Below, piece by piece: positions 9,933 to 62,782 of a DNA stretch of 64,000 nt. This DNA comes from Apus apus. Taxonomy: Eukaryota; Chordata; Aves; Apodiformes; Apodidae. A model generated the notes under the pieces. It made no database searches. It worked only from the letters and a program-made list of their open reading frames with translations, and was not told the origin of the DNA. The position numbers and the translations under genes were made by a program. The DNA lies in NCBI RefSeq assembly GCF_020740795.1, contig NC_067290.1, forward strand, positions 16,970,001 to 17,034,000, in the 5' to 3' direction. Each line of letters starts with the position of its first letter. Positions within the stretch are counted from its first letter, which is position 1.

Positions 9933-27692
<17,760 letters not shown>

Positions 27693-36868: not shown

Positions 36869-36969
36869 TCAGAGGGTGGCTGGTTCCTCTTCCAGTGCCG
36901 TCTTGCAGTCCCTGACCCACAGCTTGTATGCTCTTGCCAGGGTCTCTTCAGTAGTGTCATTGAATATCT
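36869..36969 (-). CDS. EEVS: EEVS exon 5 (C-terminus)
   Basis: 101 bp. Acceptor tttttacag, then AG completes the split glutamate codon (E431), followed by IFNDTTEETLARAYKLWVRD and ...EEEPATL, with stop TGA at 36869-36871. Too short for simple ORF detection; found by following the phase-1 donor of exon 4 and by its fit to the cyclase C-terminal helix. Confidence 0.92.
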
Positions 36970-39900
36970 CTGTAAAAATAAGACTTGTAGTTAATCGAAC
37001 ACCCAGAGGAGCTTTTCCTGCTTGCATACTCTAACTCACTAGAGGGGAGAGTAGCTCCTCCAGTGTATGAGAGGCAGTTTTCTTGTGAGTGTGTGGAGAC
37101 TGAATTTCATGGAAATTGTCTGGATGGATAGTAATGCAGGAGACCACAACCTGGTCCCATGCATTGCATCTGTGTTAGGGTTTGGCTGGTTTGTTGTTGT
37201 TTCTTCCTTTTGTTTTGGTTTTTGGTTTGGGGGTTTTTTTTGTTTGTTTGGGTTTTTTTTATGAGTGTGTTTCACCCCAGATACTGAACAGATACTGTTT
37301 AGTTTTCAGGTATTGTCTCTAGGCACGGTAATGCATTAAATTCATTTTGCCAAGCATTATTTAACAAATATTTTCAAGTATAACAAAGGAGTAGTTTGTT
37401 TCCTTTTGACATTGTTGGTTTGTCTGCCAGAGCATTGTGTTTAGACTGTTGGTTTGCAAACACATTTGCAAAGTGAATTGGTCAGTCATAAGGCAATTAA
37501 ATGGGCCTCAGTCTAATCAGAAAGATCCCATGTCTCAACAGGTTTTACAGAATCACAGAATGGCAGAGCTTGGGAGAGACCTCTGGAGATCATCTAATCT
37601 AACCCACCTGCTAGAGCAGGATCCCCCAGAGCACACAGGAATGTGCCCAGATGGGTTTTGAGTGTCTCCAGGGATGGAGACTCCACAACCTCCCTGGGCC
37701 GCTTGTTCCAGTGCTGTTACCCTCAGAGCAGAGAAGTATTTTCTTATATTTAGGTCAAACCTCCTGTGTACCAGCTTGTGACCATGATTATTGAGATGTT
37801 AAGAAAAGCACGAGTAAAACCAGAAACTGCAGAACGTCAGGGCAAAATTTGCAGCATGTCACCATGCTGAGGTGCCTGCTGCTCACGGGTGTCCCTGGTG
37901 TCCCTCTCCCACCATACCTGCCACGCCGAGGCCGGTGGGCAGGGGCATGCGGGGCTGCCCCCCGCTGTGCTTCAGACGCTCCATCAGGGCTCTCTTGATG
38001 AGGGGCCAGCTGCAGCCACTGTGCCAGACCGGCAGCTCCAGGCCCCGCATGCACTGGATGATCTGCTCCTTCTCCTCGGCCGTGACCAGCCCCCTTGTGT
38101 AGGCCACATATGTCATGAAGGCCATGTCGATGTTCACTGCTTCTCCATGCATCAGCGACGGCAAAACCCTCTGAAACGGAGCAAGGCAGGTGGGGGGAAA
38201 AAAGGCTTGGGTTGGCAAATAGTAAATAAGTTGGGTTTTTTACTTGTGAAAATTGATATTTGAGACTTGCTGGATGTTAGCGCCTTGTGGTTCATGGGTT
38301 GTCTGGGTGATCTCTTTCACGGGTGATTAATTGCATGAAAAATCTCCCCTAGGCATCCAGGTTCTAATTCTCCTCCCATTCAAATCACTGATAAAGAGGA
38401 CCACGGGATGGAGAGAAGAGCTCTGAATTAAGGTCTAGTCCTCCCCATAATTCCTCAGTGGCCATTTCTCCCCAGTAATCCAGGCTATGGTCTCCATGCC
38501 TTTGCACTGTTGTAGCTCATGTTGGTGATTTCTAATGGCTTCATTGAAATCTGTTAATCTCTGTGCTTTGGTAAGGGACTGGTAAGAACCAATAACTGGC
38601 CTGTGATCTGAATAGGAGACATGAGGGAGGATGTGGGGTGGGTGGTGGGGGGTTGGAAATGGGGCAGGAAAAGGGTTCTTTTTACCCAACAGAACCAGGC
38701 TGGGTGTGTTGGGTGGTCTCAGGTAACGTGCAAATCTGGAGTTCCACTCAGCTCCCTTTGCACAAATTTTTCATGCTGCTGATTGAAAGCTTTTTTTTTT
38801 TTTTTTAAAAAAAAAAGCAGATGTTGAAATATTAGAGCTGTCACTCACCATTTCCAGCTCTGGGCTTATAAGGTGACCAAAATCAACCAGCCTGTCCAAG
38901 TCATCCTCCCAGAGATTGGGAGCCAGCTCTTCCAGCATGGTTTCAATGGCAATCCTGGTAGTCTGCAGTGCAGCATCCCCGTGGTCAGCAGAGCCACTGT
39001 AGGACTGGAACTTGGTGTCCAGTAGGTATTTCCCATGGTTCTTGAGCAGGTCAAACAGCCCTTTGTGTTTCATGAGTGCCATCTAGGGTAGAACAGAAGA
39101 GGTAATTAAAGATAGTTACGTGATTCTAGTATGTGCCTTTGAAAACTTGAGTGTTTCAATAGACTGGCCTGTAATTTCACATTATACACTAGCAAAGAAA
39201 TATCTACACACTTGGTATGTGGGAAGGTTCTACATCTGTAACATGCAAAAATATTTCTGTAGACACAGTTCCTGGCTAGCATGTATGTGGTAGGAGGGAG
39301 GATACACCAGTCTGGTGAACATTCAGGTCTCTAGGAAATGTGACCTGGTGGTTTTCCATGTGTTGCCAGCTATGATAAGTGAAGATGTAGGCAAAAGCAG
39401 GGTGGAAATGTCCAGTGGGGTTCTGGTAAAATGCCAGAGATGATGGGAGCACTGTTGGGCAAGTTCCCGTGCTACTGGACAGTGCTGACTGTACTGTGAG
39501 CTTGCTACTTGCTCAGCAGTTTGTGATGAGCTTTGGCTGTTTGTGTGCCTGGCAGGAAACTCCAAATGGTCTCAGCTGCATGGTGGCCACCCTCAGGACA
39601 GGGACTGGATGGTGGGCACCCACAGGAGAACTTTAATCCCTGAAATTGCTCTTTGGGCAAGGGTGGGTGGGAAAGCACTGCAATATGAGCAATGTTGAAT
39701 GCCAGAAACCTTCACACATCCAGGGAAGTTCCCACTATGCAAGCACTGAAAAATGCTACTGATTAGCTCATTGCTAATATACTTCGATAGTCTGAACTCT
39801 GCTTTATCAAAAGTTTTCAAAGCTCTCCAGGCACAAAACCTTTTACTGTGCACTTCCCAGGTAATTTTAGAAGCAGAATTTTCCTCACAGGCGATTGATT

Positions 39901-42900
39901 GACCACACTCAACATACCCCGTGAGGTAGGTGCAAATGATCTTGCAGATTATTAATCTCCAGGATAATGAACCACAAATTCACTGCCAGCAGTTCATTTG
40001 AGAGACCTATGGATCAACATAAATGGGAAGATGCTGAGTATGTCTGGCCTTGAGTTTTGGAGTTTACTCCTCAAGTCTAACTCTAAGCACTGTGTTTAAG
40101 AGGTATTCTAACAAGTTTAGCAGCTCTAAAATGTATGTAGGGTCAATGAGAGTTAGAAGTCTCCATTCAGCTTCAATGGTTCACCATAGTCTCTACAGGG
40201 CATTTTATACAATGCCATGGATGGTGGTGGACATCCTACCAGCATTGCAGCCTTTCCATACTTAATAGGGACTTACAAGAAAGATGGAACAGACTTTTTG
40301 GCAAGACCTATTGCAATAGGACAAGGGATAATGGATTTAAATTAAAGAGGGTAGATTTAGACTAGCTGTAAGGAAGACATTTTTTATGCTGAGGATGGTG
40401 AGACACTGGCACAGGTTGCCCAGAGAGGTGATAGAAGCCCCATCCCTTGAAACGTTCAAGATCAGGTTGGATGGGTCTCTGAGCACCCTAATCTAGTTTA
40501 AAGTGTCTCTGCTCACTGCTGGGGGGTTGGACTAGATAGCCTTTAAAGGTCCCTTCCAACCCAAGCCATTCTATGATTCTATGAATACTGCAGTTGCAAA
40601 AGTCCATACCTTTAAAATTTCACCGAGGCCATTGGAGATGTGTCGCCTAGGAATGCTCTGAATGAAGGATCTATCCAGGAAGCTGGCTACTGGGGGGGTG
40701 TAGCCCCCGAGCTTGTTCTTACACTGCAGGAAATTCACCCCATTCTTCGCCCCCACGCTGGCATCCACGTAGGAGAGGAGGGTTGTTGGGACCCGAATGT
40801 AGGGGGTGCGTCTCCTGTAGAGCGACGCGGCCAGTCCTACGATGTCCAGGCAGACGCCTCCTCCGATGGCGATGATGGGCTCAGTTCTCCTGTCAATGCT
40901 GAAGCTCTGGACTTCTTGCAAGATGTTCAAGACAAGGTCCATGGATTTCGTTTCTTCAGTGGTGGGCAGGGCGAGGATTTTGTGCTGCACGTTATTCTCT
41001 TCAAAGTATTGTCTGACTTTGGAGCCATAAAGTTCGTCAACAACTTCATCTATGACAATGAAGCGCCTCAGCTTCCTTTTGCTGCTCATGGCTAGCTCTA
41101 GCTGCTGGGGGTCAGTGATGTGACCCCAGAGCAGAGTAGTGTTAGAAGGATCCAGAATATTGTATGTTTCGACCACTTTGTAGCAAAAATAGATGGGAGC
41201 TTCAATTGTCCAGGAAATTCCATCTTCAGAGACACATTCTCCTCTGGCAAGGAACAGAAAACAATTATGAGATTCCTCTTGTACTCTGCATGTCTGAACT
41301 AGCTGGGGATGGGGAATGTGGAGTCTCCTGCCTATGCACTGCCAAGGCACAGGGCTGACAGGATGTGACATGTCTCCTGGACATCAGGGCCCAACTGCTT
41401 TGGCAGCAGAGAAACCCTCTTGTCTTAAAGAACGGTCAAATGTCTGAACTTCTACAAGATAATGGTAAAACAGAGAGCAGAAAGGGCTGGAAAAACAAAT
41501 AATTTTCCTTGCAATTCATTCATGTGTCAATAAACCAGCAGAAAACCCCAGTCCAATCACCCCAGCTCCCCAGAAGGGAGTGGGGAAGAGACTGCCAAAG
41601 TTTCCCAAAGTATTTATGAAGCAAACATCCTCTGCCCAGTATATCTGGGTGAAAGGAGTTGATCTGTTCCTGTCTGTCTGCACACAGCCACACACATATA
41701 CACACCTCCATACAAAATAGTCTCTCTACAATTCTCATCAGAGTGGATCTCTCTGTCTTGAAACAGAGATGATAGAAACAGGAAGTGCTCCCAGGTAGTT
41801 AAAATAAAAATATAATTATTTGAGAGGTGGCAAAAGTTTCCACAGTGGAGTTTGAAAGGGTAAATAGAAGCCCACAAATCTGGCATGTACTATCTATCTA
41901 AAACAGTGAAGAACACAGCCCTGCAACCCAGTTATTGCTTCTTCTGTTGCCAAGGGGCAGCCAAGTGGCTTCTTTAGTTTACTGGAAATCAGGAAAGGAT
42001 TTTGTTTTTGTTTTAAAAGAACAAAACTGCATATATTTTTTTTTTTATGAGATCACTTTGTGAGGGTTGTTTAAAAACCTTTGCTTTGTTTTTTTTTTTT
42101 TTGAAGGAGCGGATGGCTGATTGGATAATCAGATTTCTGTACATGCCCAATTTCTTTCCACATGCCTGAACTTTCTCTTTTAGGCCTAAATAGATGTTTC
42201 TCTATCTTCTTTACCAAATTGCTGTTAAATCTGGCCCTAAGCTTTTTAAGTGGTACAAAAAAACAATGAGGATTTTTACCTCCAAGAAGATTTCCTCTGG
42301 GCTTTTAAAATGCAAAAAATCACAAAACATGATGGTGTGTATTTTAATGTACCAAAATATACACCTTACAGCTGTACTTTATGTGCATATACCTCTGGCA
42401 TGTGAGCCTCCTAAGAGACAGGATGGTTTGGAATGTTGGAATCAGCTGTGGGTGCCAGGTGGCACAGCTAGCACCCATCACCACCCCTCTGCTGTATGAA
42501 GAGAGCAGTGAATTGGAGTCTGAACATACCCTTGTTAAAGCATGTGTCAGCTGAGGATTTTTCAGGGTCTGCTCTAGGTTCATCCTACCACTGACAGAGG
42601 TCCTGCAGACTGCCTCTGGGTCTGCCCAAGTCCTTTCTACCTGCTTCAGCTCTGCCTCAGCAATGCTCCTGCGTGGCAGCTGCCCAGGGCTGGCACTGGA
42701 TCCCCTTGACCTGGTCTTGGAAAGGCTTAACTTGTGACATTAAAGCCTGAGTATAACAAATGCTAGAAAACTCCTGATGTGCAGGAGATAACTGTGTTAA
42801 GGAGGAGCTGCATCACAAACAGGGCTCCATGCACTTGGGAAAAGGAGTATCCTGTAATTAAAGGATAATTAACTGGAGAGATGTAATATCAGCAAAGAGC

Positions 42901-43636
42901 TGTATGTATCCCTGGGAGAAAATTGTGTCCCTTGTCTGAAGCAGCATTGGGTGACTTCTACAGTTTCAGGGATGTGTTAATGGTTTTGCCCTGTGTCAGT
43001 GACCTAGTGTGATTGTTTTTCCAAGCCAGTCATTTCTTCTACCTGCCACTCTCTCTATAGATGCATTCTTCTCCCATGCCTGTGCATGAGCTTTTGTACA
43101 CAGACATCTCCTGTATATACAGGGGGAAAAACAGACCAACCCCAAGTGCAACATTCAGCAATCCCTGCAGGAACGTTTCAGGACTTTAAAGAAACTTCCC
43201 ATCTACAGAAATTCAGGCTGTTGATAAAATTCCCTATGTAACTTAGCCAGGTCATGCCAAGGAGAATAGCAAATACCTGTGCTGCAATATTGCACCTTTT
43301 GAAGCCCACTCATGTAGGGATGTACACTTAATGGTGGGTTTAAGCTTCAAGGGCATGCAAGAGGGTTTTTCCAGCTGAGATGCATCCCACCAGGAAGACT
43401 GCACAGTCTGCTAGCCAGAGCCCTCCGGTGCAGTCACCAGTGGACACAATGTGCTCCTATACTTACATTTTTGCTTCGGAGAGAGTTACCTTGTCCTCAC
43501 AGTTGGAAAGGGCTTCTCCTTTCTTGATCCTGCACCACGTGTTCCTGACTCTCACCAGCTGGAAGTCTGTCTGCCGGGGCTCCTGGGGCACAGGGGCCGG
43601 GGCCACTGGAGCAAAGGTCTCTTCTGACACTGGCAT
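36869..43636 (-). CDS. EEVS: 2-epi-5-epi-valiolone synthase (EEVS), five exons (gene span)
   Basis: A sugar-phosphate cyclase related to 3-dehydroquinate synthase (DHQS). The EEVS family uses NAD+ and a divalent metal to convert sedoheptulose 7-phosphate to 2-epi-5-epi-valiolone, the first step of gadusol synthesis in egg-laying vertebrates. Five exons join in phase to 1392 bp, 463 aa. Visible marks are GGGVCLDIVGLAAS at 184-197 (NAD site), VPTTLLSYVDASVGAKNGVN at 208-227 and metal ligands E265 (GLGEILK), H338 (DFGHLISPELE) and H354 (LMHGEAVNID). The spacings (73 and 16 residues) are close to those of DHQS (77 and 16). Where DHQS has a second GH pair, this protein has SP, and it reads GAKNG instead of GGKTG; both fit EEVS rather than DHQS. 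No stop or frameshift is seen. Position between MITF and MT-Ox is the known vertebrate synteny. Confidence 0.95.
36970..37917 (-). other. EEVS: EEVS intron 4
   Basis: 0.95 kb, with a T/G-rich tract at about 37.20-37.26 kb and a reverse CR1 fragment at about 37.55-37.79 kb. Confidence 0.85.
37550..37785 (-). repeat. CR1 retrotransposon fragment
   Basis: Reverse orientation: 'agaatcacagaatggcagag', 'gagatcatctaatctaaccc', then about 170 bp of 3' body ('ctccacaacctccctgggcc', 'tgttaccctcagagcagaga'). It lies in EEVS intron 4, close to exon 4. Confidence 0.9.
37918..38170 (-). CDS. EEVS: EEVS exon 4
   Basis: 253 bp, phase 0 in, phase 1 out. Starts RVLPSLMHGEAVNIDMAFMT with zinc ligand H354, and ends MPLPTGLGVA. 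Acceptor ccgtttcag, donor GCAG|gtatgg. Clearly more GC-rich than the flanking introns. Confidence 0.96.
38171..38848 (-). other. EEVS: EEVS intron 3
   Basis: 0.68 kb. Contains a T run followed by an A run at about 38.79-38.82 kb; nothing else recognised. Confidence 0.85.
38849..39082 (-). CDS. EEVS: EEVS exon 3
   Basis: 234 bp, 78 codons, phase 0 both sides. Begins MALMKHKGLFDLLKNHGKYL and ends DFGHLISPELEM with zinc ligand H338. Acceptor ctaccctag, donor ATG|gtgagt. Confidence 0.96.
39083..40609 (-). other. EEVS: EEVS intron 2
   Basis: 1.5 kb. Its splice-donor-proximal end is filled by a CR1 copy (about 40.24-40.59 kb). Confidence 0.85.
40235..40588 (+). repeat. CR1 retrotransposon, 3' end
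   Basis: Forward-oriented, about 350 bp: 'ttacaagaaagatggaacag', 'gagacactggcacaggttgc', 'ggttggactagatagccttt', 'aaaggtcccttccaacccaa', with tandem 'attctatg' at the end. The tail stops about 20 bases from the EEVS exon 2 donor, antisense to the gene. Confidence 0.95.
40610..41243 (-). CDS. EEVS: EEVS exon 2 (main NAD-binding exon)
   Basis: 634 bp: one base completing I57, then 211 codons. Contains SWTIEAPIYFCYKVVETYNI, LLWGHITD, the GGGVCLDIVGLAAS dinucleotide-binding loop, VPTTLLSYVDASVGAKNGVN, and GLGEILK with zinc ligand E265. Acceptor ttgccag, donor AAG|gtatgg. The 151-codon frame on the opposite strand is its shadow. Confidence 0.97.
41244..43466 (-). other. EEVS: EEVS intron 1
   Basis: 2.2 kb with short T runs (about 42.03-42.05 and 42.09-42.10 kb). 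No repeat family or exon recognised. Confidence 0.8.
43467..43636 (-). CDS. EEVS: EEVS exon 1 (coding part)
   Basis: 170 bp from the ATG at 43634-43636. Encodes MPVSEETFAPVAPAPVPQEP, then FQLVRVRNTWCRIKKGEALS and a short linker. Donor AAAT|gtaagt (phase 2) is the one that keeps the frame into exon 2; an earlier GT at AAG|gtaact is phase 0 and would break it. A TAG lies in frame upstream, so this is the first usable ATG unless a further 5' exon joins at the acceptor-like ttaccttccag just before it. Confidence 0.85.
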
Positions 43637-43862
43637 GATTCTGGAAGGTAAAATCTACCTGGTAAGAGATCTCCTGTAACTGGGTGTCTTTGAGGTGCTT
43701 TTTAAAGGCTTCAGGTGACCAGGTGTTGGAAGGGGAGGACTTGTCTCCACGGTGCAGCTCAGTTACAAAACCAAGATTATCTAATCTGGGATGCACGTTA
43801 GGGGTGGTAGGAGCATTCAAAGACATGTGCTGGTACCAGGATGGGGTTGTATAATCAGCTGG

Positions 43863-43869
43863 TTTTATA
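43863..43869 (-). promoter_or_regulatory. EEVS: TATA box candidate of EEVS
   Basis: TATAAAA on the minus strand, about 230 bases upstream of the EEVS ATG. It predicts transcription start near 43838 and a leader of about 200 nt. No splice is needed to reach the ATG. Confidence 0.45.
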
Positions 43870-44543
43870 ATGCTTGAGAGGTATGCTGGGAGCACATACG
43901 TTATCTTCCAACATGATGCCCTACAGCAAATTAAAGGTTATGAAAGGCAAGTTGTATGATTCTCCATTATCTTCAGGAGCCTCCTTTGCTGAGCGAAGCC
44001 TCTGGTCTGTCTGCAGCTCTAACCTGCTCTTATGGGGTGAGACAGGAGAAAGAGCATGGGGACAGGATCAATTCCAGCTGGTTAAATGTCTTTTGAGCTC
44101 ACATTCCTGTTTTCTTTTGTGTTGAGGAACAGTGTGACTTTTGTTGTTGCTGGTTTTAGCTTTTATGGTGTGTTAAAAGAAATAATCAGAGGGAGTCTTT
44201 CCCTCTAAGGGCTGTTTTTGGGGGGATTACCTGGGTTGTGATTTGTTTGCCAGGCTGCTGGTGAGACTCTGAGATGCTGGGGTTTCCCTGTGGTGGAGTC
44301 ATTTCAGGATCAGCCATGTGGTCCAGGTGATGACCCTGCCCTTAGTCCCCTGCTCTCCTGCAATTGCCACCTATTTGTTGTATTAAGACTATGCCGGATT
44401 CCCCCTAAGTACCCAAGAAGACCCTATCTCCCTAAGCCAAAAGCACGTTGCTTCTGTGGGTTGGCTCAGCCAGAGGGTAGAAGTCTCCTTCTCTAGGAAG
44501 TGCTGGCATGGTGGGGGGTGGCAGGGGGCCCATTCCTGCTTCC

Positions 44544-44550
44544 CACGTGA
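44544..44550 (+). promoter_or_regulatory. CACGTGA E-box between EEVS and MT-Ox
   Basis: CACGTGA is the preferred 7-mer core of the MiT/TFE family (MITF, TFEB, TFE3). It sits 0.9 kb from both gene starts. A CpG-containing 7-mer is uncommon in bird DNA, but a single copy could be chance. Confidence 0.35.
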
Positions 44551-44825
44551 TGGAGGGATCCCCAGTTCACCTTTCTGTCTGGTGTTCCAGCTGGAGCTGT
44601 CAGAACCAAACTCCTTTAGCATCCAGCTCTGTGCACTGATTTTGCCAGCAGTGCCTGAAGGTATGAATTCATCTTTGCCTTCTCCTTGGCCCTGTTTCTA
44701 AAAGCTGTCCTTGTTCACAAACAAAGATCAGGAAAACCGAAAACAGGCGTGAAAGCAGCGGCTGGAAGAAATGCTTCTTCAAGAGCCCATTGAACAACAG
44801 TGAGCTCTCATTGCATTGAAGGCTT

Positions 44826-44900
44826 ATGGATCACAGGATCACAGAATGGTTTGGGTTGGAAGGGACCTTAAAGATCATCCAGTTCCAACAAGCCCTAGAT
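44826..44900 (-). repeat. CR1 3' tail fragment
   Basis: 'ggatcacagaatggtttggg', then 'ttggaagggaccttaaagat' and 'catccagttccaac'; reverse-oriented CR1 terminus, truncated. Confidence 0.9.
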
Positions 44901-45563: not shown

Positions 45564-48500
45564 GTAAGACCTGCTCCCCCCAGCCTCTGCTCCTCCTGTG
45601 CCCAGCCCTGGGCTCTCTTCTCACTCTTTGCGGGTACATTGAGTCAGTCCTTGACTGGAGAAGCCCAGGCTGAATGCCCCAGAGGTGAAAGATTCCCTTC
45701 TGGTTATGGGTTTGTCCACATCTCCTCATTACCGTCAGTTTGTGTTTCATCTGCATGAGGAGCAGACGGCCAGCCGACCTCAGGTCCATCACATGCTCTT
45801 TAATTAGTTTTTTTTAATTCCTCACCAGCCTTTTCTTCTCCAACTCTGCTCCAGGCCAGCTTAAGCTTTTGGATACCCTGGATGATCCCAGTGGTTTTTC
45901 CTGACACCTCCTCCAGCCAGTGCTTTCCTGGGATCTTTTCTGGTGGTGCAGGAGCACTGTGTGACACAACCTTCTTCAGCCAATGCAGAAACCTGGCCTC
46001 TGAGCTGGACCCCAGAGCAGTGGGTGCTCTGAGGTCTAGCTGCATGAGGCAGTGAGTGACCTTGCAGCTATGGATCACTTGCAGATAATCTGGCGTTTAA
46101 AGTCCTGGGGCTCTTTTGGCCTCATACCTGATGGTTTAGTGGGGACATGTCTGTGCTATGTAACCAGAAGGTTATGAAATTGCTGATTCTCTCATTGAAA
46201 GTTATCCTTTTTTTTTTTTTTTTTTTTTTCCTCTTTTCATGCCAGATGCTGTTGGTTCTCACCCACTTCCTGTACTCTGGGTGGGGTCAGGAGTGGGTGC
46301 CCAGGGCCATCCTCCCTGCGCAGCCTCTCCCTAGGGCTGGGGCTCAGCCCAAGTGATTACTGATGGAGAAACCCATCCTCTTAACAGACACCTGAGCACC
46401 AACGTGCTGCTCTGCAGAGGCAGCAAACCCACAGCAGCATCCTCTGAGGCTGGGGGACAAGAAGCAACATGCATAATCCTGCAGGTAAACTCCCTGTGTG
46501 GGGTGGGGAGCTCCAGGAGAGGTGGTGTGACAGGAGGGGATGCTGTGTGACCTCCCAGTACTAAGTCACTTGCTGCCCAGCAGAGATGGGATCTACAGAC
46601 TGTGGCTTGGCAGAAAAGAGCAGAGGGTTTATTGGGGAGAGGAATTTGAGGCTGAGCAGGGGAGGTGGGTCTGAAAGAACCTGCAGTCAGAGGGGTGGAT
46701 GCTCCCAGCAGTAAGGGATGGGCAGGAAGGTGGACACTGGTGTCAAGAGAGTTTAGCTGTGACTAATTTCTGGTGGCTTGGGGTGCTTGTTTTTATAAAT
46801 ATTTTTCCTGCAGCTTTACCATTGCCTCGGTGCTTTCTGTGGTATCCACACGTGCCTGGGTAGCAACCACAGCCAGGTGCTTGCTGCCTTTTTTGCCTGT
46901 TTTCTGAAATCACCAGCTGAGCGTGGGAACGCCGGCTGCTCTGAATGGAGAGATTTTGTTCTCTCACAGCCCGATCTAAAGCCCATTGAAGCTGTCAAAG
47001 GACTCCTCTTGACTGCCCTGGGCTTTGGATCTGACTGTCAGTGGGTACTGCTCGTTCCTGCTGCATGCAGCATCATTTGTTACGTATGGAAATAAAAGTA
47101 TGCTTTGCATATGATCTGCCAGGGACTCCCGAGCCTCCCCGATGCAAGCACACGAGTGCAGGGAGTATCCAGCCCTCCTTTTCCAGCAGCAGAGCCTGTA
47201 GAAAACATGTCAGCTAGCATGTTTTCCTTACCTTCCCCTGAAGTTCAGTCAGAGTTTAGCACCCTGGTTCCTGCACAAGCTGCTGCTTCCTCCACCTCAG
47301 CTGCTTCCTCCAGCTCTTCCTCCTCATAGTCCCACTCCACTCCTAATCCATTATCTCTCCCCATGCCATCACTGCTGCCATCACGGGCTCTGGCGCTATT
47401 GATGCTGAGGTTAAACATCAGCTAAACTCTGCTCAGGACCCCCTGCAATATTTAATGGGCAGGCAGTTGGGTTTGGCCCATGCTGTCAGCCCACTCTTGG
47501 CCCCACATGGGCTATGACATGACACTGTAGTTCATGGTCCTGCCCAGGCTCGTGGGTGGTGGGTTTGGAACCACTGAGCAGCCTCAGAAGTGCCACAACT
47601 GCAATCCTCCTTCCCTCTGCTACAGGTCCATCCTTTCAGTGGGCGTACATCACAGCTGGGTTTAATGTAGTTGGGTCAAGCAGTAGAACAGGGTCTCCTG
47701 ATGTCCTGGTTGAAGTTTTGTGTGCAGGCTTCTGGTGGGCTAAGGAAACAGTTCAACTTAATCAGTCAGAAAAGCAGAAGGCCACAAAAATGTCAGAGGG
47801 CTGGAGCACCTCTCCTATTAAGTCTGTCTGAGAGAGTTGGGGTTGTTCAGCCTGGTGAAAAGAAGGCTCCAGGGAGACCTTATAGTGACCTTCCAGGACT
47901 TAAAGTTGGCATATAAGAAAGATGGAGACAAACTTTTTATTAGGGCCTGTAGTGATAGGGCAAGGGGTAATAAATTTAAACGAAAGAGAATAAATGTAGA
48001 CTAGATATAGGGGAGAAGTTTTTACAATGTGTATGGTGAGACACTGGCACAGGTTGCCTGGAGAGGTGGTAGAAGCTCCATCCCTGGAAATACTCAAGGT
48101 CAGGTTAGACAGGGCTCTGAACAACCTGATCTAATTGAAGGTGTCCCTGCTTACTGCAGGGAGGTTGGACTAGTTGACCTTTAAAGGCTTCTTCTAACCT
48201 GAACCACCCTGTGATTATACAAAATTATAGCTCAAGCATTGCCTTTCTGCATCCATGAAGAGGTTTGCCTGGTGAGATGTGGTGGCTGAGGTGTATTTAC
48301 ATGTTAGGATGAAGTGGTGAGTGTTGTGATAAGCTGTTGTCAGTGCCTGAGGTGCTGTGGTGAATATGATGAATATGATGGCTGGAACTGTTTGGGATGA
48401 TTTTATCAGGCTGGATTTCCAAGTGTTTAGCACCAAGTGGCTCCTGCCCAAGCACTTGGCACCCAAGCATTGAGCTGGCAGCATGGAGTTTGCGTGCATC

Positions 48501-51500: not shown

Positions 51501-54500
51501 CTCCACCTGAATCATCAGCTTTTGGCAGGGTCTGACTTGTGAAGAGCTGCAGGGAGATCTACCATGCTGTGCCAATGGGTTCAAGCATGGTTAGGTTTTT
51601 TTGACCTGAGAAACAGAGGGTTCAGGGTGGTGCATCACCACCAGAAGCTGTTGTGGGAAGTTAAAGGCAGAAGAAGGGTTAGGAGGTTGGATTCCTGCCA
51701 GGTTGGTTGCGACATCAACCTGCTTAAAAATTGTCAGTTGAAGAGCATCTTTGATTTTATGCCATCAGGGATTTGGCACAATGATTTTTTTACTTGAGTA
51801 TTTGTCAGCTGGGCTGCATTAGGGCAGGTGTACTTGTATTTTAGAAACGAGCACCATGGGCTGCTCTGCAGACTCTGCACAGCAGCCTCCGTGGCACAGA
51901 CACGTGTCGAGGCACTTGTGCACCTTGTTGGCACAGAGGTAGCCGAGTTCCTCCTTCTGACAGAGGTAGTGGTGCCTGCGTGTCCTGGCCTGGAGGATCT
52001 GCCTGGGTTTGCAAGAGTGGTTTGAGAAGCACCCTGCTTTCTCCAAGGAAAAAAACTACCGAGAGGAGTGGGGTTTATACACAGTTGTTTGGTGTTTGAT
52101 GTTTATTTCAGAGCTTCAAAAGTGAAAAAACATATTTTTGAATAAAATTGTTTGGGTTGGAAGGAACCTTAAAGATCCTCTTGTTCCAACCCCCTGCTTG
52201 AGCAGAGACACCTCCCACAAGAGCAGGTTGTTCCAAGCCCAACCTGGCCTTGAACACTTCCTCTCAGAAATGCATCAACTGTGAGGGGAAAAAAAACACA
52301 GAGAGAGCATGAAAGAAAAATGAATTAGAATGGTAATATTTTTCTAGTTTGAAGAGATTACCATGATTGTTTTTGTAGCCCTTCAAAAATGTGTATTTTA
52401 TATAGAAAAACAAATAAAGCACACTATTTTTTTTGTGTCTAAATTCCTCTTCTGCTGATTTGAGCAGTTACAGAATCATTGCTCTTCCTTTTGTTTTCCA
52501 TTTCAGAAACCCCAGCTGGACTCATTGCTGAGAACCTTCTCAAAGCCAAAGAAATAGCCCTCAATGACTCTTGTGTTCCTGAACAGCTCAAGAATTACTT
52601 ACAAAAAGCTCTCGATGTTGCTCTTGGACTAGACCCTTACCTGGATGCAATGGCAACTTCAAAGAGGTAGGGATAATCCTTTGCAGCCTTGTGCTTTTTT
52701 CCTGTGATTGTATGAATGTGTTCTTAGATTTTCTGTTCAGAACACCCCACAAACACAGAGGACAGTGGAAGGAAGGGGGATGAGAGGTAACTGCACCCAA
52801 ATATATCACGAAATGTGCATGAACACGTGCGTTTGTGTGCACCTTGAGGAGAGGAGGTGAGAACAGAGTCCTAACTTGAAATTTTGGAAGATATTCTGCC
52901 AGTCAGCTCTTGACTAAAGCAATGCTTGTGTTGGACCATATCCTGGGCAAAACTGTAAGGCAGCTGCCACACTGTGCCCTCTGAAAGGCTCTAAGAATGA
53001 GCCCCTGCATCAGATTGTGCTGGGATAAATAAAGAATGAAGAAAACCTGCACCTCTGGATCCACCCTCTAATAACAGCCTTTATATGCAGCTTTTATCTC
53101 CAAGAGCTCTACAAACATTAATTAATCTGCTAACTAAATTACTCTAGTAACTAAACTAATTAATTAAACTAATTTAAGGTATCATTAATTCAGAAGTCCA
53201 ACTGATACCCTCATTATTCTTTTTTGAGCTACAGTGTATTACCCAGCCATGTGGGGTCTGCTAAGCCCTTCCCATTTATCAGTGTGCATTTTGATGTGTG
53301 GAAAAAGCCAGTTCTGTCTTAAAGTGACAATGTGTAAACTGTTCCAGGCTGTGGATTACGGGAACACTCCTCGATGGTTCTGTTGCTGAAATAATAGCTG
53401 AGAGTTGTTTGACTTGCTCTTGCCGTACGATAATAGCTATACATTATCTTATTAAAGTTGTTAAAGCATTTGTGAGGGGCACAAAAGAGGTTATACAAAA
53501 TGTTCTACTCTTTAAGTCTTGGATTATCTGAGTGTGGCTGACACGGGTTATGAATTCTTTCTCATTTTACTGAGGAGTGTGTGTGTGTGGGGGGGGAGTT
53601 CTGGGGAAGGGAAAAAAAGAAGCTGAAAAGGCTCTAAATACTGGCCCACAGAAGTGTCACCAGCCATTTCTGGTGGTTGTTTACTTCAGATGGGGTCATC
53701 TAATTTGTCTAGAGGCTGTGGACTTCTTCCAGTCATCTGTTCCCTTCTCTTCATAATAGGTATCATCTCACTTCATCCAGGGTCCTTGTCACAGGCCTGG
53801 TTTCTGTGAACTAACACCTGGAGATATCCTGCTTTTCTCAGCAGGTTGGGAGGAAAACCATTTTTTCCTGTCTTGCAAAAAAAAAAAAAATCATAAAAAA
53901 TTAGCTTTTGCATCTTTTGCCCCATTCTGCAGTGAAACCTCTTCTGGCTGGAAAAGTGAAAAAAAAAAAACAAACCACCCAAAATCTGGCCAAGGTAATT
54001 GGAACCATTTATTCCAAACCAGCAGGTAGATAAGACACCCGTCTGGAGCCAGCTGGAAATGGGGAAGATTTGAGGTTGAACAGTAGGCAACACTTTCTTT
54101 CAGCACCACAACCCCTTCTTCCCTAACCCATATGGCTGCAGCAGCATCAAGACAGTCCTACTGCCAAGGTAGGTCCTCTTAGGCATGTAGTTTAGGAACA
54201 CTTTTCATGATTCTGGGCTGATTTCTCATGCTCATGAACAAACAGACATTTTCCAGGAGTTCCCTCTTGGCTGCTGTTTTTTAGGCAGGATACTCAGGAT
54301 TTTGATTGTTACCATCATGTTGAAATTTCTGTCTTTTCCCAGAAAACCTTCACCTGACCACAGCTCAAGAGATGCTGGAGGAACTGAAACCAGAGCTAGC
54401 CTGCAGGCACATCATACCTCTGGCTCTTTGAATGGTAAGTTGGTCAACCAAGCAGATAAAATTGCACCTGACTGGTTTGAAGTTTAGCACTGAAGTTCAT

Positions 54501-57500
54501 CCTCTGTTCCATCTTGTGGGGAGATAGTCTGACTGGTATGGAAGTGCTCAGAAAATGTGGAAAATTCCTTAAAAAGAAAGACAGGAACTTCCTGTAGGCT
54601 TGGATCTTTTTTTTGTGTGAGTTTTCTCTGTCTTTCATCTCCCATGCCCTTGTGCACATGCACATGCTCCTGAGTGCTTTAATTCAGAGTTCCAGTCCCC
54701 TCCCCTAGTGAGCAGCAAGGAGACCATCATCCTCTCTGGAAGGGGAAGGAAGGGAAAGGAAGGGAAAAATCATGTTGGTTTTGGTTTGGTGGTGTCTGAT
54801 AGAGGTTTTTGTTCTTTTGTGGTGCAGGTGGCCTGTGGCCAAGCACTGCACCTTTCCAAGCAGCAACACCCAGGCTTGTATCCCAGTATAAAGTCTATTA
54901 TCTAATCTATTCCCAGATTCATTCTTCCCAGATGTTCCCATCTTTTGAGTAATATATCACCACAGTGAAGTACTCTTATAATGTATTACACTAATACATT
55001 GTTCGAAGGACACCAGTGATGATAAATTTCTTAAATGATGGTGCTGTCTAGGGATAATGACTCTAAGAGCAAATGCAAGGTAATGTAGTGATTTTTTTTA
55101 ACCAGGTTCCAGAAAGAATATGGAGACCTCTTAAAGCCATTTTCATATAGGGGGAATGTTAAAATATGCAATATTTCAAGCACTATTTAACAAGCACTTG
55201 AACAATAGCAGCATTGATGCTAAAGGTTCTACATTTAAAATCAGTCCCTTTATTCTGTTGTCTTTTAGCTGCATTTTAGTTTATTTTTTTTTTGTCAGAT
55301 TCTGTTGTTAAGCCCTTATTTGAAGGTGTTTTAGGATTAGTTTTTTATTTTAATGATCACTTAAAAGGTACATCTAATTTTCATTGTGAACAGGGAACAG
55401 TCTTTCCTATGGTTTTTATTTTTAAATTTTAATTCTTTTCTTTCAACAGGCCAAATTTTTAAGATGTTTATGCATATGATCAGAGCCAGGAGGATTTTAT
55501 TAATTGGCAAGCTTAAAGGTTACAGTATCCTTGCTATTGCAGAAGAATTACCAGATGATGGCAGAATCTTTGCATGCGCAGAAGCGCCGTATCTCGGAGT
55601 GAACAGCCAAGAAGCATTTGATTATTCTTCAGATGGTAAAAAGATAAGCATGAGAGTGGGACCTACAGCAGACACTTTGGAGGTAATGTCAGTTGGAAGG
55701 GGAGTTTCAGGGTTTCAGGCAGGTCCTTGTTTCTGCCCACAAGATGCTGAATGGTGACCTTGCAAATACGTGACCATGCTCTTGCACTGGAGTTATTTCT
55801 TATTCATGATGATGTATGATGGGATGGCTCTGTCACACCAGATAATTTTTTGCTTCTCAACTAAAATACTGTACCTTTTGATCAGAGGGATTACAAGGTC
55901 TAAGTGCAGGTTGATAAGCTTCAGTGGCAGGACTTGACATAGGTGGGCTTTGTCTCAGGGGCTCTTAATTCCAAGCATAACAAGCTGAAAGGGTGTATCT
56001 CTCCCTGCTGGGCATGCCCTGGGAAGGACAGCTTGCACCCAGTGTTCACAAGAATTGGAAAAGTCCTGCAGAAGTTTGTGACCCCCAGGCTGTCACCGTT
56101 TTCCCCAACTGGCAACCCTGCAGGCCATTAGACCCCAAGTTTCTCACTTCCAGAGCAGTGTGATAAGCTTCAGATGTGCAAAACCATTAGTTGAGTTTGT
56201 TTCATTATGAATAGTGACTTTGTCCCAAGAAATAGAAAAGCTTATAACTGTCAACAGCTAGAGGAGTTTCACATTGAATTCCAGTTTATACAACTCCAGG
56301 ACATGGAGGGCCAGCACGCTAACAGGTGATGTCCATGCTAGGTTCATTAAACATGTAGCCTTTTTATTATTAATGATCAATTTGATCTGGTTCTGTTTTC
56401 AATCTGGATGTGTTAGTGTGAGCTGGATTGTAACTGTATTTGCATTAACAGGTCCCATATTTGTTTCTAAAATGAAATGGCCAGAAGATTTCTGACCTCT
56501 GACTGTTATGACCTCTAAGTTTGACAAGAAAGAAAAAAGAGCTTTACCAAGTATATGAATAAATGAAATGTTACAGATCACCTGCAATGTGCAGCATTTA
56601 AAATCCCAGCTCCCCACAGTGAGTGTGAAATTAATTGAATTGCTGTTGCTCTCTAGTGCCCATTCTGTGCAACTGACTTACTGTGACTGAATTAAAATAT
56701 CCAGAGGCAGGCAGAGTACATGCTGTGTAGAGATTAAAGAAGAGAGCAAAGACATGAAAATTAAATCCTTAAAACAGAACATTGAGGTTGATTTTATATC
56801 CTCCAATTGCAAAGCAAAGGCACATCCAGACCCCGGTTCTGCAGGTGCTCAGGGCTTCAAAGAAACTCTTGGATCCCAGAGAGATCCCAGTGCTGAGGAC
56901 ACCTCAAGGTGCAGGATTTCTGCACTGGGCTCTGAAATTTGGTTGCTCAACCTGGCAGGTATTTAGCAATTGGGATCAGGACGATCAGGATTGTCCTACA
57001 GGTCAGAATGACTGTAAAAGGTGAAGCAACGCATTTGGTGGCCTCTCTATTGCCTTTGCAGTTTGGGCTTATTAAGGTTTGCTCAGCTGGAGTGAGGCAG
57101 CCATGTGGGAACACACCTAGATAGATGGATGGAAGAGGCTCAGGCTGTGAGCAGCATGCTGCCTTTTCCCTCCCAGAGAAGACCAGCTTAGCCTGAATAC
57201 CTGTGGCTTCCTCCACTGCCATTTGGCCGTTGTTGGGAAGTGTGGTGAGATTTAGGAGAGCTAGAACAAGCTCTGGGAAGGATTATCTTTGTTGTCTGTG
57301 GTGTCTGCAGCCCTGGGTTTCATTCTTGTCCCTCTAGAGATATTAGAGGGCAGAGATGGTCACCCACCACATGATTTTTGGATATGTCTGCTGCAGCTTT
57401 CTTACCAAAGTGACAATGGCTGAATTTTCTTTCCAACCTGAGTGCAAAAGGGCAGGATTTCTGCCCATCTGCTGCTCCTCCCCTTTTTGCAGCTGTGCAA

Positions 57501-60500
57501 GCCCCTGGGAGCAAAAGATTTGCCTTGCTGCACTGGCTTTTTCAAAGCACAAAAATGTCATATGATATATAAATAACACTGCCTGGCAGGGAAGTCCTTT
57601 TCTGCTGCATGGAACTATGATGTGGAAAATCCAAACTGCCAGAAGGTATGAGATGGATTCTCACTTCTGGTGTAAAATTAGTCCACCGAAGAGTTCCTCT
57701 TGCCTTGAGCATGAGGCTACCATCCACATGCTGCAGGATTTGTCCAGTGCTGTGTCCACATGTGCTGCTGATGCCCTTTAGAAGGAAATCTGCCAGATGT
57801 TGCAAGAGATGCCACAAGGATGTGGCACATCTGTGCCTGTGCACCTCAGACAGCAGGAGCTTTGTGGCACCCATGTAGCTCTGGTTCTTCCACCTACACC
57901 CAAAGCCCACGAGGGCTGTGTGAGAGCAGAGAGCAGTGCAAAGGCAGCTCATCATTCCACAGCAACACCATGACCAGGCTTTCTGAAGCCTCTTGTGCTC
58001 CTTTGCATTATCGCACCTTCCCTGTCTCTTGTCCCAGCTCAGAGCCAGCTGCAAAACACCTGGGATTTTGAGCTGTCAAAGGATTCTAAATACCAGACAG
58101 GAACTGCAGAGCTCAGGTGTACAATGGGGTGCTTTTGGTACCTGAGGGCATGATATAAAAAATCCACCTTTCCCACATGTGAGGGATGGCAGGGCCAAGC
58201 TAGGTCAGATCCCCACCAAAGCATGCTCCATGCTCACATGCACCCTGGCACAAGCCTCTGTGTCCATTGACCGCAGGAATTTTAATCCAATATTTAGAAA
58301 TGTGGGCAGTGGGGAAGATTTTCCTTGGGCTCAGCCTCTGATACAGGTGCTTTCAGTGGGAATTAGCTACTTCTCCAACACATGCTGGATCAGTGTTTCA
58401 AAACCTTTCCCAACAAGGTCCTTCAGTCTAAACTCTTGTCATGCTGTTCCTGGGTAATTTCCCTTGCCAGGCCTGATCCTGCACAAAGAGCTTCCTTTAA
58501 CTCCCACTGGACTTTTGGTTGAACAATGGATGCAGGATTGAGTCCGGAGGGCATGCAAACTACCAGGAAATGAATTTCCCTTCCAGGAGTTTTTTGATCC
58601 TTCCATTTAAAAAATCGAAACAGCAACACACAAAATAACACCGTGTTTGCAGCAGATTCTGCTGATTGCAGGGCATTGTGCAAGCATGTCAGGGGTTTCT
58701 TTTTTCTTTTTTTCCCTCCTTTTACCAGACAGAATAGGTGAAGAGGTTGAGCTGCAGATCTCATTTCTCCTGTTTTGCTGCTTGTGAAGTCTGCCAACAG
58801 AATCCACCTTGACAAAGTCAAGGACTCTGCGTTTAATGTTGAACTGAGTGAATAAATTATGCATGAAATTGTGTCGGAGTCTCTAGTGTGCAGAATTGCT
58901 CCTTTTGATATGAAAGGTTAATTCAGAAAGGAGTCCAAAATAGCTGGAAATTGTGGGGATAAGTGGATAGTATTCACTGTTGTGAGCTGTTATTACTAGA
59001 AATTGCATTCCCTCTCTAGCTTCCCTAGAGATTTAGCTTTGCTGGTGAATATAAACTGTACTCAATAGACTAGCATTTAGGAGTAACAAGAGTGTATGTC
59101 CACATACAGTAAAATATTCTAATGGTGTTTTAAAAGGAAGCTGCACTTTTTCATGTATTCTGTGGACCCAAAGGATGGATTGCTATTACATTTAGGTCAA
59201 GAACAAGGCATAGGGAAGGTAATAAGTTTTGAGTACATCTTTATTACAAAGATGCTGACTGTATGATCTGTATCGAAGGAACTGGACAGTCATTTCTTTT
59301 CTGACTGAGTTTGTATGTGCCTTATGAGAGAGTGTCATCTCTGATCAGGACTCCAATCAGGTTTTCTCTGAGCTTTGACAGAAGATTCATTCATGTTTTC
59401 ATTTGGGATATCCTCTCCCTGATTTTTGCTGTATCCCTCAGCAGCTCTGCTGTGCCCTTTCTTGTGCTCGATTTCAGTGCATCTCCTCCATGTGATCCTG
59501 TGCTAAAAGTTTGTGTTGTTTTTTTTTTTTTTTTTGAATCCTAAAGGAAGTTAATGACTCACTGTAAGCAAAAGCATTAATTTTAGCCAAGTTTGCTCTG
59601 AATTAAGACACTTCTTGCTGCCATCTGTTACCATCTATGATGCCTCTGTAGCAAGGAGCAGGGATTGCACTGTAAACGTTCAGGAAATTAGTTTCAGCAG
59701 GATATTTTGCAGGCAGATTATTTCCTTCTGGATCTCAGCTTTCCTCACAGTTGGAGGCATTGGGGCTCTGCCTGTCTCCAGCAAAAGACAAAGGCATCTC
59801 CAACGTGGTGTGAGGTCCCAGGCCTGGCCTAGTCTGAGAATGAGTGTGGTCAATCCCTCCTCTTAAACCCTCTCCTCCATTTTGAGAGGGACAGCAGTGA
59901 GGGTCTCCTCTCCATCACTGCCCTGACAGTTCCAGTGCTTAGTTCTGCAGTCACAGCTGCTAGCGGAGAAGCTTTTCTTTTCTTTTTTTTTTTCCTGGCT
60001 CTCTTGGTTCAACAGTGGGTGCTGGCACTGAGGAAATGCTCTCCAGTGTGGTAGCCTGGCCACCATGACTGCCTGTCTGAGTGACCTGTGCTCTGCTAGC
60101 CAAGGAGTTCCAGGAAACAGAGCACTTTCCCATTCCTGAGACTCTTATCCTCTTGTGCAGAGGCTGCTCTAGAGGCAAAGCTGGTTCAAGGAATGTTGTG
60201 GATTCCTCTTGTAGGCCTAGAGTTATTTCCAGTGAACTGCTGTGGAAAGAAGAAGCTCAAATGGTGGCAGGGTTCCAGTACAAATTCCAAGGCAGTGATT
60301 CAGGCATTTCCATACAGGTGTCTAGCATCTAGAAGAAATGAAAGGTGGCCAAGTGACCTTCATGGCTGGACATTCAGGACTTGATGAACTGGTGGAAAAG
60401 AAGTGCCTTCTAAGCAGTGGCCTTGGACACCCTGGCAGTGCAAGGGCAAGACAAGCATGTGCTGGGTACAGCCAACACAGACACCCTCCTGGGATGAAAG

Positions 60501-62782
60501 CTGGGAAGTTAAAAGGTGGTTAATCTGTATCAGAAGACAGATAAGGAGATAAGCTGTCAGCAAGTACAGTACAATAAGCAACAGTACAATAAGAGGGCTG
60601 AAATGAGAAGTCCAGCTAATATCCAAAGATCTACACAACTCCATATGGACCTAATGAAGTCAATGCATTAAAGTGAGATTCTTTTTCATTAGGGAGCCAT
60701 ACTAGGGAGCAGTAGTAACATATGTTCAGAGATGGCCACATCTGCTTCTGAATGTCTGCCCCCCACCTCCTCCATCCGGGAAGGTTACAAGTCAGAAAGG
60801 AGTGATAAGTCATGATAATTGCTCAGATTTGGCTTTGGCTCTTCCCTCTGGGGAATGAGACCTCTAATCTCTCTCTCTGATGGACTCCTCCTCCTAGCTT
60901 TAATCCTCTGACCCTTCCTGAAGTATCTGCATAGGACAGACTGGCAGAGTGGCAACCTGATATCAGATATTCTTCCACAGTAGCAAAAATGTTCCAGCTG
61001 CTTTCCCCCACTATTGCTCAAGAGGGAACCAGGGCAAAACTTTCTAACTGGTCATGAAATGAAAAGATGAATCCCAGGAAACCAGATGTCCCCAGATTCT
61101 GCTAGGTTTATTATAAAACAGCATATATTTGGCCTTAAGATCTCCTTTTGTTGTAGTGCAGTATCAAAAGGTGTCCTAAAATGTGGACTCATTAATGCTT
61201 TTGGCAGAGCTTCTGTGCTATCAAGCATCTGCAATTAAGTGTGAGTATCCAGGCTTTCAGGCAGGCTTAATTTCTTAACCACTAACAAGCTCACAAGGAC
61301 ACTAGTTTGCACAATAAAGTAATTCAGAGTTTCAGTGATCCACTTCCTGCTAGTTCTTCATCTGAATGACACACTCCCTACTCTTGAAATCTCTGTTTGG
61401 GAGCCATCAACCTCCTTCCCAAAAACAAATTAGTTTTTTTCACATTCTGTTGCCATTTGTTATTGATGCTTCCTCTGGTACATCTCAGGGGATTGCTCAT
61501 CACTCATTGTGCACAATGTCTCCAAACACAAAAGGGAAATCTGGACGCAAGAAGTACTGTTAAAAGATGTGGTAGAAACAGTGAGTTCTGGAAAACATAA
61601 TTGTTTCTCTTTTCACTCAAAATGCCAAGACTTGAAAGCGTTTTCTTGCCGAGATAGGTGGATGAGCCGTTGTTTCATTGCAATGCACACAGATGCAGTT
61701 AAACAGTCCCAGATGGAATCTGAAATATTCCATCGCAGCCTCTTGGGCAGCGAGTGCATTAACTGCCACAGGAGAAGGCTGTAAAGGCTCCCATCTGGTC
61801 ATCCATCAACACTTTTATACATTATCATCAGCAGCCTGCTTGGAGGGAAGGTGTGCCACATTTCTGAAAATCCAATTAGATGATAGCAGCCAGTTCTCTT
61901 TTATCCTCTCTGTTGCTGAGCCCTCCAAAGCATTTTTTTAGATTAAAGAAACATCATTTTCCTTCACAGAAGCTGGGCTGCTTTATCTCTATCATGACCT
62001 GTTCTTTTATGTGCTTTATAATTCTATTATTAATTGGGATTTCAACCATTTTCCTGCTACAGAAGTGATATTCACTACTTTGCAATTCCCAGGATCAGCC
62101 TTATGCTTCTTTTTCCCAGACTGATATAATTGCCACTCTTCAAGTTGTTGATAGTTACTCTTGTGAGAAAAGACAACTTATTGCAACACCTCAGCTTCAG
62201 GGTTTGATGCCATTCCTCTCCCTGACCCTGAAGGATCAATTTACTTTAACTCTAGATAGGCAGAAGTTTCTGCTGTGGCTCTCAACACCAGAAGCAGGGA
62301 CAAACCATCCTCTTTTATACCCTGATTTCCTCTGAGAGGTCAGAGTTTTGGACACCAGTGTTGCTGAAGAATTGTTTGCAAAGCATGGAAAACTCCCAAG
62401 ACCTCCACAATTCTTGAAATGTTAATTTAGAAAAAAAACAGGGTTCCTTCGGATTTGGATTTTACAAAAAAAAGCATTTTAATGGCAAGACATTAAGTTT
62501 TCAGGTAAATAATTAGTGTTTTCTCCAACACATTTTTTTTTCCAGGCGTTACATGCTGAGGATGAGCACTTTGATATAGTCTTTATTGATGCTGATCAAA
62601 GGAATGCTTTTAACTACTACAGCTTTGTCATGGATAACCACTTGCTGAGAATGGATGGAGTGGTCTGTGTAGAGAATACACTCATGAAAGGACAAGTCTG
62701 CCTGGAGAACATATCGGATGAAAATGTACTAGCTGTCAGAAAATTAAATGCAGTGATTAATTCAGATCCTCGTGTTGAGCAG
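45506..62782 (+). CDS. MT-Ox: MT-Ox (gadusol synthase), 5' part: methyltransferase domain (partial gene)
   Basis: Second enzyme of vertebrate gadusol synthesis, a fusion of an N-terminal SAM-dependent O-methyltransferase and a C-terminal NAD-dependent oxidoreductase that converts 2-epi-5-epi-valiolone to gadusol. Five exons here (780 bp, 260 codons) join in phase and code for the methyltransferase half. An N-terminal helical part (TPAGLIAENLLKAKEIALND) is followed by motif I region GKLKGYSILAIAEELPDDGR (123-142), then FDIVFIDADQRNAFNYY (190-206), the class I caffeoyl-CoA-type OMT signature with its metal-site aspartates, and VVCVENTLMKGQV. The oxidoreductase half is absent and should lie beyond 64000. 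The order MITF-EEVS-MT-Ox and head-to-head orientation support the call. Odd: motif I reads GKLKG where relatives usually have GTFTG, and the acidic residue after strand 2 is shifted or lost. Confidence 0.88.
46208..46229. repeat. Poly-T run
   Basis: An uninterrupted run of about 22 T, in MT-Ox intron 1. Confidence 0.9.
47790..48225 (+). repeat. CR1 retrotransposon, 3' end
   Basis: About 430 bp, forward: 'tggggttgttcagcctggtg', 'aaaagaaggctccagggaga', 'gagacactggcacaggttgc', 'gaggttggactagttgacct'. The longest CR1 copy in the window; body and tail are similar to the copy at 40.2-40.6 kb. Confidence 0.95.
49193..49215. repeat. (CA)n microsatellite
   Basis: About eleven CA units, in MT-Ox intron 1. 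Confidence 0.95.
52145..52285 (-). repeat. CR1 3' tail fragment
   Basis: 'ttgtttgggttggaaggaac', 'cttaaagatcctcttgttcc', 'aaccccctgcttgagcagag', then 'aagcccaacctggccttgaa'. Reverse CR1 end, about 220 bp upstream of MT-Ox exon 2. Confidence 0.92.
52507..52666 (+). CDS. MT-Ox: MT-Ox exon 2
   Basis: 160 bp. Enters in phase 1, reads (E)TPAGLIAENLLKAKEIALND ... LQKALDVALGLDPYLDAMAT, and leaves with two bases. This is the N-terminal helical part that packs on class I OMT domains. Acceptor ccatttcag, donor AGAG|gtaggg. Confidence 0.9.
52667..54342 (+). other. MT-Ox: MT-Ox intron 2
   Basis: 1.7 kb, AT-rich with 'taattaat'-type sequence near 53.12-53.18 kb, a GT/G run near 53578-53598 and two A runs near 53.88 and 53.96 kb. 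No exon recognised. Confidence 0.75.
54343..54434 (+). CDS. MT-Ox: MT-Ox exon 3
   Basis: 92 bp, phase 2 in and phase 1 out: (R)KPSPDHSSRDAGGTETRASL then QAHHTSGSLN(G). Corresponds to the linker that leads to the first strand of the Rossmann fold. Acceptor ttttcccag, donor AATG|gtaagt. Low-complexity polar composition makes family identity weak on its own; phase fits both neighbours. Confidence 0.8.
54435..55449 (+). other. MT-Ox: MT-Ox intron 3
   Basis: 1.0 kb, with a G/A-rich simple repeat (ggaag/gggaa units) at about 54739-54767. No exon recognised. Confidence 0.75.
54739..54767. repeat. Purine-rich (GGAAG)n repeat
   Basis: Tandem ggaag/ggaaa units, about 29 bp. Confidence 0.75.
55450..55682 (+). 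CDS. MT-Ox: MT-Ox exon 4 (SAM-binding motif I)
   Basis: 233 bp: two bases complete G104, then 77 codons, phase 0 out. Reads QIFKMFMHMIRARRILLIGK, then LKGYSILAIAEELPDDGRIF and ...ISMRVGPTADTLE. The layout matches the first half of class I OMTs (strand 1, glycine loop, helix, strand 2). The glycine loop is GKLKG and the segment after strand 2 is ACAEAPYL. Acceptor ttcaacag, donor GAG|gtaatg. Confidence 0.93.
55683..62545 (+). other. MT-Ox: MT-Ox intron 4
   Basis: 6.9 kb. Contains a T run at about 59519-59535 and a few shorter ones. A 170-codon minus-strand frame at 57.5-58.05 kb shows no recognised family. No CR1 copy was recognised in this interval. Confidence 0.65.
62546..62782 (+). CDS. 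MT-Ox: MT-Ox exon 5 (metal-binding/catalytic OMT core)
   Basis: 237 bp, 79 codons, phase 0 both sides. Reads ALHAEDEHFDIVFIDADQRN (182-201), AFNYYSFVMDNHLLRMDGVV and ...NAVINSDPRVEQ. IDAD at 195-198 is the metal/catalytic signature of CCoAOMT/COMT-like enzymes. Acceptor tttttccag, donor CAG|gttagt. No later MT-Ox exon was recognised before 64000. Confidence 0.94.

Follow-up and report, generated by a model that had tools for sequence, protein, structure and literature searches.

The closest described system to the locus presented here is the gadusol pathway of zebrafish (LOC100003999 and zgc:113054). According to Osborn 2015 (PMC4426668) EEVS converts sedoheptulose 7-phosphate into 2-epi-5-epi-valiolone (EEV), which MT-Ox turns into gadusol by oxidation and methylation. 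The published gene order around the pair is FRMD4B-MITF-EEVS-MT-Ox-MDFIC-FOXP1 (PMC4426668, PMC8294118, PMC6173838), and fish EEVS genes are described as having five exons (PMC8294118). Both genes are reported to be lost in mammals, the coelacanth and puffer fish (PMC4426668) and in catfish (PMC6173838).

The presence of the gene pair in birds is already known. Table 1 of Osborn 2015 (PMC4426668) gives 11 bird species as carriers, the chicken included, and the bird rows bear no mark of absence. It is on the presence of the genes that birds are listed as carrying the gadusol pathway; about the role of gadusol in birds nothing is known according to the same paper. A literature search at the level of titles and abstracts, mostly without subscription papers, returned no report of a defect in the methyltransferase of a bird.

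The window analysed here is a stretch of 64,000 nucleotides from Apus apus (G000:C10:16970001-17034000), and the genome searched was the 1.10 Gb assembly of 110 contigs. The pair lies on two strands, with EEVS at 36869-41243 on the minus strand and MT-Ox starting at 52507 on the plus strand. As in zebrafish, the two genes are found beside MITF with a gene carrying an MDFI domain on the far side, the cyclase is of the EEVS type, and in MT-Ox a class I methyltransferase at the N terminus precedes an SDR oxidoreductase. The initial annotation had named the pair correctly. It had also called it an intact copy, but an intact gadusol pathway is not supported by what we find: in the methyltransferase (MT) half one exon could not be recognised and four signature residues are replaced, while the oxidoreductase (Ox) half is well conserved. 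The reading that we favour, on balance and from the sequence, is that this is an avian orthologue of the vertebrate gadusol pair which has been partly dismantled, EEVS and Ox being kept while MT would be dead or dying.

The EEVS gene and the neighbours of the pair

The features of EEVS and of the flanking genes are the following.

36869-36969, minus strand: last coding exon of EEVS (EIFND...PATL, then stop); acceptor ACAG, phase fitting the preceding exon
37918-38170, minus strand: EEVS exon RVLPSLMHGEAV...GLGVA with the HGEAV motif; Pfam DHQS_C, E=2.7e-8; splice sites
38849-39082, minus strand: EEVS exon MALMKHKG...SPELEM with the FGH histidine; alignment to ValA, splice sites
40610-41243, minus strand: large EEVS exon (GGGV...PTTL...GEILK); Pfam DHQ_synthase, E=2.2e-30 with this exon and the next one joined as query
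27267-27692, plus strand: last coding exon of the flanking gene MITF; open frame of 141 aa, Pfam DUF3371, E=1.8e-42
C10:17099929-17100186, downstream of the window: MDFI-domain exon of an MDFIC-like gene, on the far side of MT-Ox

The four EEVS exons have AG and GT at all inner junctions, their phases match and the frame is open to the stop codon at 36871-36869 (minus strand). The large exon is the sole match to PF01761 (DHQ_synthase) in the genome search, and the matches of both genes are far from chance (EEVS exons to ValA, E=3e-93, and to PF01761, 2e-30; MT-Ox exons M2 and M3, listed below, to PF01596, 3e-13 and 1e-13). Scoring of donors and start codons for the first exon, the one with the ATG, gave four candidates above the score limit, none with support from similarity. 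The cyclase, which had been annotated as complete, is therefore better described as four exons open to the stop, completeness being unproven as long as the exon with the start codon is not established. It should be noted that the intron between two of the coding exons holds an open frame from stop to stop of 111 aa (38435-38770, minus strand).

The cyclase is EEVS-type judged by its sequence. Against solved structures the bit scores are 316 for ValA (4p53), a characterised EEVS, 201 for 5tpr and 122 for the best 3-dehydroquinate synthase (DHQS), and in a tree of 11 sequences the three DHQS stand apart with 100% support. A DHQS in place of an EEVS is rejected on these scores and on this split, and the proposed check of the cyclase by its best match thus came out well in favour of EEVS. 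In the same tree the bird protein groups with the Streptomyces clavuligerus cyclase at 62% and these two with ValA at 56%; since this support is weak, the choice between EEVS and DDGS is made on the scores. The structure 5tpr, which we take to be the Anabaena DDGS, is deposited as a 3-dehydroquinate synthase. ValA and the bird protein are 45.8% identical over 356 columns, with the glutamate and two histidines aligned: GEILK, FGH and HGEAV of the bird stand against AEILK, FGH and HGEAV of ValA, whereas 5tpr has HGHAV. We assume that these residues bind the metal. The cyclase matched six NCBIfam models, all six of them below their cut-offs.

Some residues of the bird EEVS are unusual. It differs at 3 of the 53 columns that are identical in seven cyclase references (two L to I and one P to S), and at 19 of the 107 columns that ValA shares unchanged with three plasmid-borne proteins carrying the annotation sedoheptulose 7-phosphate cyclase, KN for KT and HS for HP being among these changes. 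It also has GHLI where these proteins have GHSF or GHTF. The unusual residues fall in the exons at 40610-41243, 38849-39082 and 37918-38170 (minus strand). To judge from these changes EEVS may also be under relaxed constraint.

The pair was said to lie directly downstream of MITF, and the last coding exon of MITF confirms this. The further statement that it lies between MITF and FRMD4B has to be revised: with the MDFI exon located 3' of MT-Ox, the pair lies between MITF and the MDFIC-like gene, and the literature order puts FRMD4B beyond MITF. The two genes are divergent in this bird (EEVS 36869-41243, minus; MT-Ox 52507-62782 within the window, plus); a tail-to-tail arrangement is given for the pair in a paper on the catfish genome (PMC6173838). 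Three places in the window (33387-33578, 40150-40365 and 47822-48004) have frames with peptides resembling RTRGNGFKL. These peptides are presumably similar to the C-terminus of proteins encoded by CR1 LINEs.

The two halves of MT-Ox

An examination of 68 kb past the end of the window added six exons (X4-X9) to the three MT-Ox exons found inside it (M1-M3). The reference used for numbering and identities is an approximate zebrafish MT-Ox sequence, set down without a database record, in which single residues may be wrong. Its agreement with the bird genome along its length speaks for it, as does a bacterial protein that matches residues 45-269 with E=1e-40, although with gaps and weakly within residues 61-99. 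All exons are on the plus strand and positions are in window numbering.

52507-52666, plus strand: exon M1 (ETPAGL...ATSK); phase 1 at the start, phase 2 at the end
52667-55449, plus strand: interval expected to hold an MT exon (residues 61 to about 100 of the approximate zebrafish sequence, about 40 residues); 2783 bases without N
55450-55682, plus strand: exon M2 (QIFKM...TLE); Pfam Methyltransf_3, E=3e-13; starts in phase 1
62546-62782, plus strand: exon M3 (ALHAEDEHFDIVFIDADQ...RVEQ); Pfam Methyltransf_3, E=1e-13
64073-64150, plus strand: exon X4, end of MT and linker; 46% (12/26) identical to the approximate zebrafish sequence
65417-65633, plus strand: exon X5, SDR oxidoreductase
70257-70465, plus strand: exon X6, SDR oxidoreductase
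70993-71065, plus strand: exon X7, SDR oxidoreductase
75487-75604, plus strand: exon X8, SDR oxidoreductase
81764-81959, plus strand: exon X9, SDR oxidoreductase to the stop; last codons including the final W, then stop

M1 is 53% identical, without gaps, to residues 8-60 of the approximate zebrafish sequence; it was found in the search of the bird's own genome with E=5.6e-9 and has no significant Pfam match. The MT half was rightly placed in the window, with 62782 as the end of M3, and of the ten exons claimed there seven are supported (four of EEVS and three of MT) while the remaining three are not. M1-M3 have open frames, align without gaps and carry splice sites at their edges, and from M2 to X9 one open frame runs across eight exons. 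For the first exon of MT-Ox, scoring of donors and start codons gave four candidates, none of them convincing.

The Ox half is in good order. The protein of X4-X9 matches PF13561 with E=2.8e-61 and PF00106 with E=2.8e-54, the splice sites of X4-X9 are present and there is no internal stop; a C-terminal SDR is thus found open at 65417-81959 (X5-X9). It carries TGAGQGIG, NNAG and YNASK, which we take to be the usual SDR motifs. Relative to the approximate zebrafish sequence M1-M3 are identical at 107 of 209 positions (51%) and X5-X9 at 216 of 270 (80%), a difference with a Fisher p of 3e-11 in which the linker exon X4 falls outside both counts. The identity of the single exons X5-X9 (69-93%) together with the strong SDR scores suggests that Ox is still under selection. 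It may be that MT evolves faster than Ox in all vertebrates. In Osborn 2015 (PMC4426668) EEVS and MT-Ox of the stramenopile Aureococcus are given as more than 50% identical to the vertebrate proteins, so the MT half of the bird is about as far from fish as the whole protein of Aureococcus. A fused MT-Ox was also looked for in bacteria; among 64 plasmid records matching Ox the one examined, with 97% query coverage, was a stand-alone SDR.

The bird exons, none of which has a gap in the alignment, cover residues 8-60 and 101-551 of the approximate zebrafish sequence (X4 and X5 overlap by one residue where they meet), so that residues 61 to about 100 have no counterpart among them. The interval between M1 and M2 gave no match in a tblastn search. 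The best local score in it was 31, to be compared with 27 and 32 in control stretches, a mean of 29 and a maximum of 47 with 60 shuffled queries, and 148 and 125 for the neighbouring exons (the latter for part of M2). Seven candidate exons in the interval pass the filters for splice sites, phase and length, none scoring above 18 against either the approximate fish sequence or a Flavobacterium relative. A whole-genome search had no match over residues 60-98, at a sensitivity which also missed the short X4. An exon hidden in an assembly gap is excluded, the window being without N, and a second intact MT-Ox elsewhere was not seen among the 20 best candidates, the only ones scored by the whole-genome search: of its 18 matches 8 fall at this locus, and the other 10, which are weak, on other contigs.

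The break does not rest on the zebrafish reference. With M1 ending in phase 2 and M2 starting in phase 1, a direct join of the two is frameshifted and reads R-P-N-F and then a stop. From these data the MT half appears to have lost an internal exon leading into the SAM-binding core. The frame could be kept by a cryptic acceptor within M2 joined to M1 or by skipping of M1, the starting phase being 1 in both exons.

M2 and M3 were further compared with 35 class I O-methyltransferases, of which 30 are the best-scoring loci of one bacterial family (all 60 of the genomes searched had a match) and 5 are PDB chains out of 45 distinct sequences matched. The likeness to this class (PF01596; PDB 3cbg, 3r3h, 3tr6) extends over both exons, and GxxxGY and FIDAD are kept, the last aspartate of FIDAD included. 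The bird differs from the class by the absence of a recognisable segment before the SAM-binding core and by replacements at four positions. The acid of motif I (E in 34 relatives, D in one) is L in the bird (LLIG, M2) and that of motif II (D in 34, E in one) is A (ACAE, M2); in M3 the catalytic lysine, K in 35/35, is Q, and one metal-site aspartate, D in 35/35, is E. The roles of these positions, in holding SAM, binding the metal and acting as general base, are assumed from catechol O-methyltransferase. At these sites the approximate zebrafish sequence retains E, E, K and D; the result for the bird is independent of that sequence. Of the 43 columns conserved to at least 90%, 20 are changed in the bird and 12 in the approximate fish sequence, so that part of the bird's count can be put down to divergence from bacteria.

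What the pair may still do

If the partly dismantled pair is the right reading, EEVS would be expected to go on cyclising sedoheptulose 7-phosphate to EEV, and the Ox half to go on oxidising EEV with NAD+. The replaced residues of MT would be those holding SAM, binding the metal and acting as general base. With an exon and active-site residues of MT lost, the final step, O-methylation to gadusol, is probably gone, and with MT dead or dying the production of gadusol is doubtful. The likeliest outcome would be that the pathway halts before methylation or that another methyltransferase works in trans. One point against the reading is that M1-M3 are without stop or gap, although sequence which has been dead for long should show them. 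Further points against it are the 19 of 107 columns at which EEVS itself departs, a possibly faster evolution of MT than of Ox in vertebrates at large, the origin of 30 of the 35 reference methyltransferases in one bacterial family, of which they were the best-scoring matches, and the use of the approximate zebrafish sequence to place the exons and define the missing piece. Their place in frame upstream of the conserved Ox may be what keeps the remaining MT exons open. As a mark of a promoter for Ox alone we looked for a CpG island, and none was found from 34 to 84 kb in bins of 1 kb (one of them with 437 Ns).

A broken methyltransferase next to a conserved oxidoreductase separates the presence of the genes from the product. 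A vertebrate pathway acquired by horizontal transfer may thus have been retuned, or may be on its way to being lost, in birds. We tentatively suggest, while holding it to be somewhat doubtful, that some or all birds have a shortened pathway of EEVS and Ox without methylation, in which an unmethylated oxidised cyclitol replaces gadusol. If true, the product would be like desmethylgadusol and be a reductant more than a UV filter, and the published claim of a gadusol pathway in birds would be wrong about the product.

The alternative that the whole of MT-Ox is turning into a pseudogene in this species, beginning with the MT half and leaving EEVS without its partner, we find unlikely. The exon that was not found and the frameshifted join of M1 to M2 would fit with it, as would the losses of the pair in mammals, coelacanth and puffer fish (PMC4426668) and in catfish (PMC6173838). 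Against it speak the splice sites and uninterrupted frame of X4-X9 and the conservation and SDR score of X5-X9, X4 alone being down at 46%.

That the pathway is complete, the exon having diverged past recognition, the residue changes being tolerated and gadusol being made as in zebrafish, seems to us quite improbable. M1-M3 are open, ungapped and splice-flanked, and birds are among the pathway carriers of Osborn 2015 (PMC4426668). The missing segment scores only 24 between the approximate fish sequence and the Flavobacterium relative; with so little conservation at long range, an exon that has diverged could go unnoticed. The D to E change at the metal site is conservative and may still allow binding of the metal. 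However, the seven filtered candidate exons do not exceed a score of 18 even though the exons neighbouring the segment are 47-53% identical to the approximate zebrafish sequence, and all four of the signature positions, kept in 35/35 relatives, are changed. An ordinary avian orthologue, in which a fast-evolving MT half is common to all birds and this species is no exception, regardless of the product, is very improbable: with one bird analysed a species-specific change and a bird-wide one look alike, but methylation by an enzyme without the general base and the SAM-binding acids would be left unexplained.

Returning to the partly dismantled pair and the possibility of methylation in trans, the genome search gave two weak matches to the MT half on another contig (G000:C5:22690926-22692917, minus strand), one of 49% identity with E=0.004 and one of 47% with E=0.48. 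This locus is perhaps another class I O-methyltransferase gene and hence a candidate for methylation in trans.
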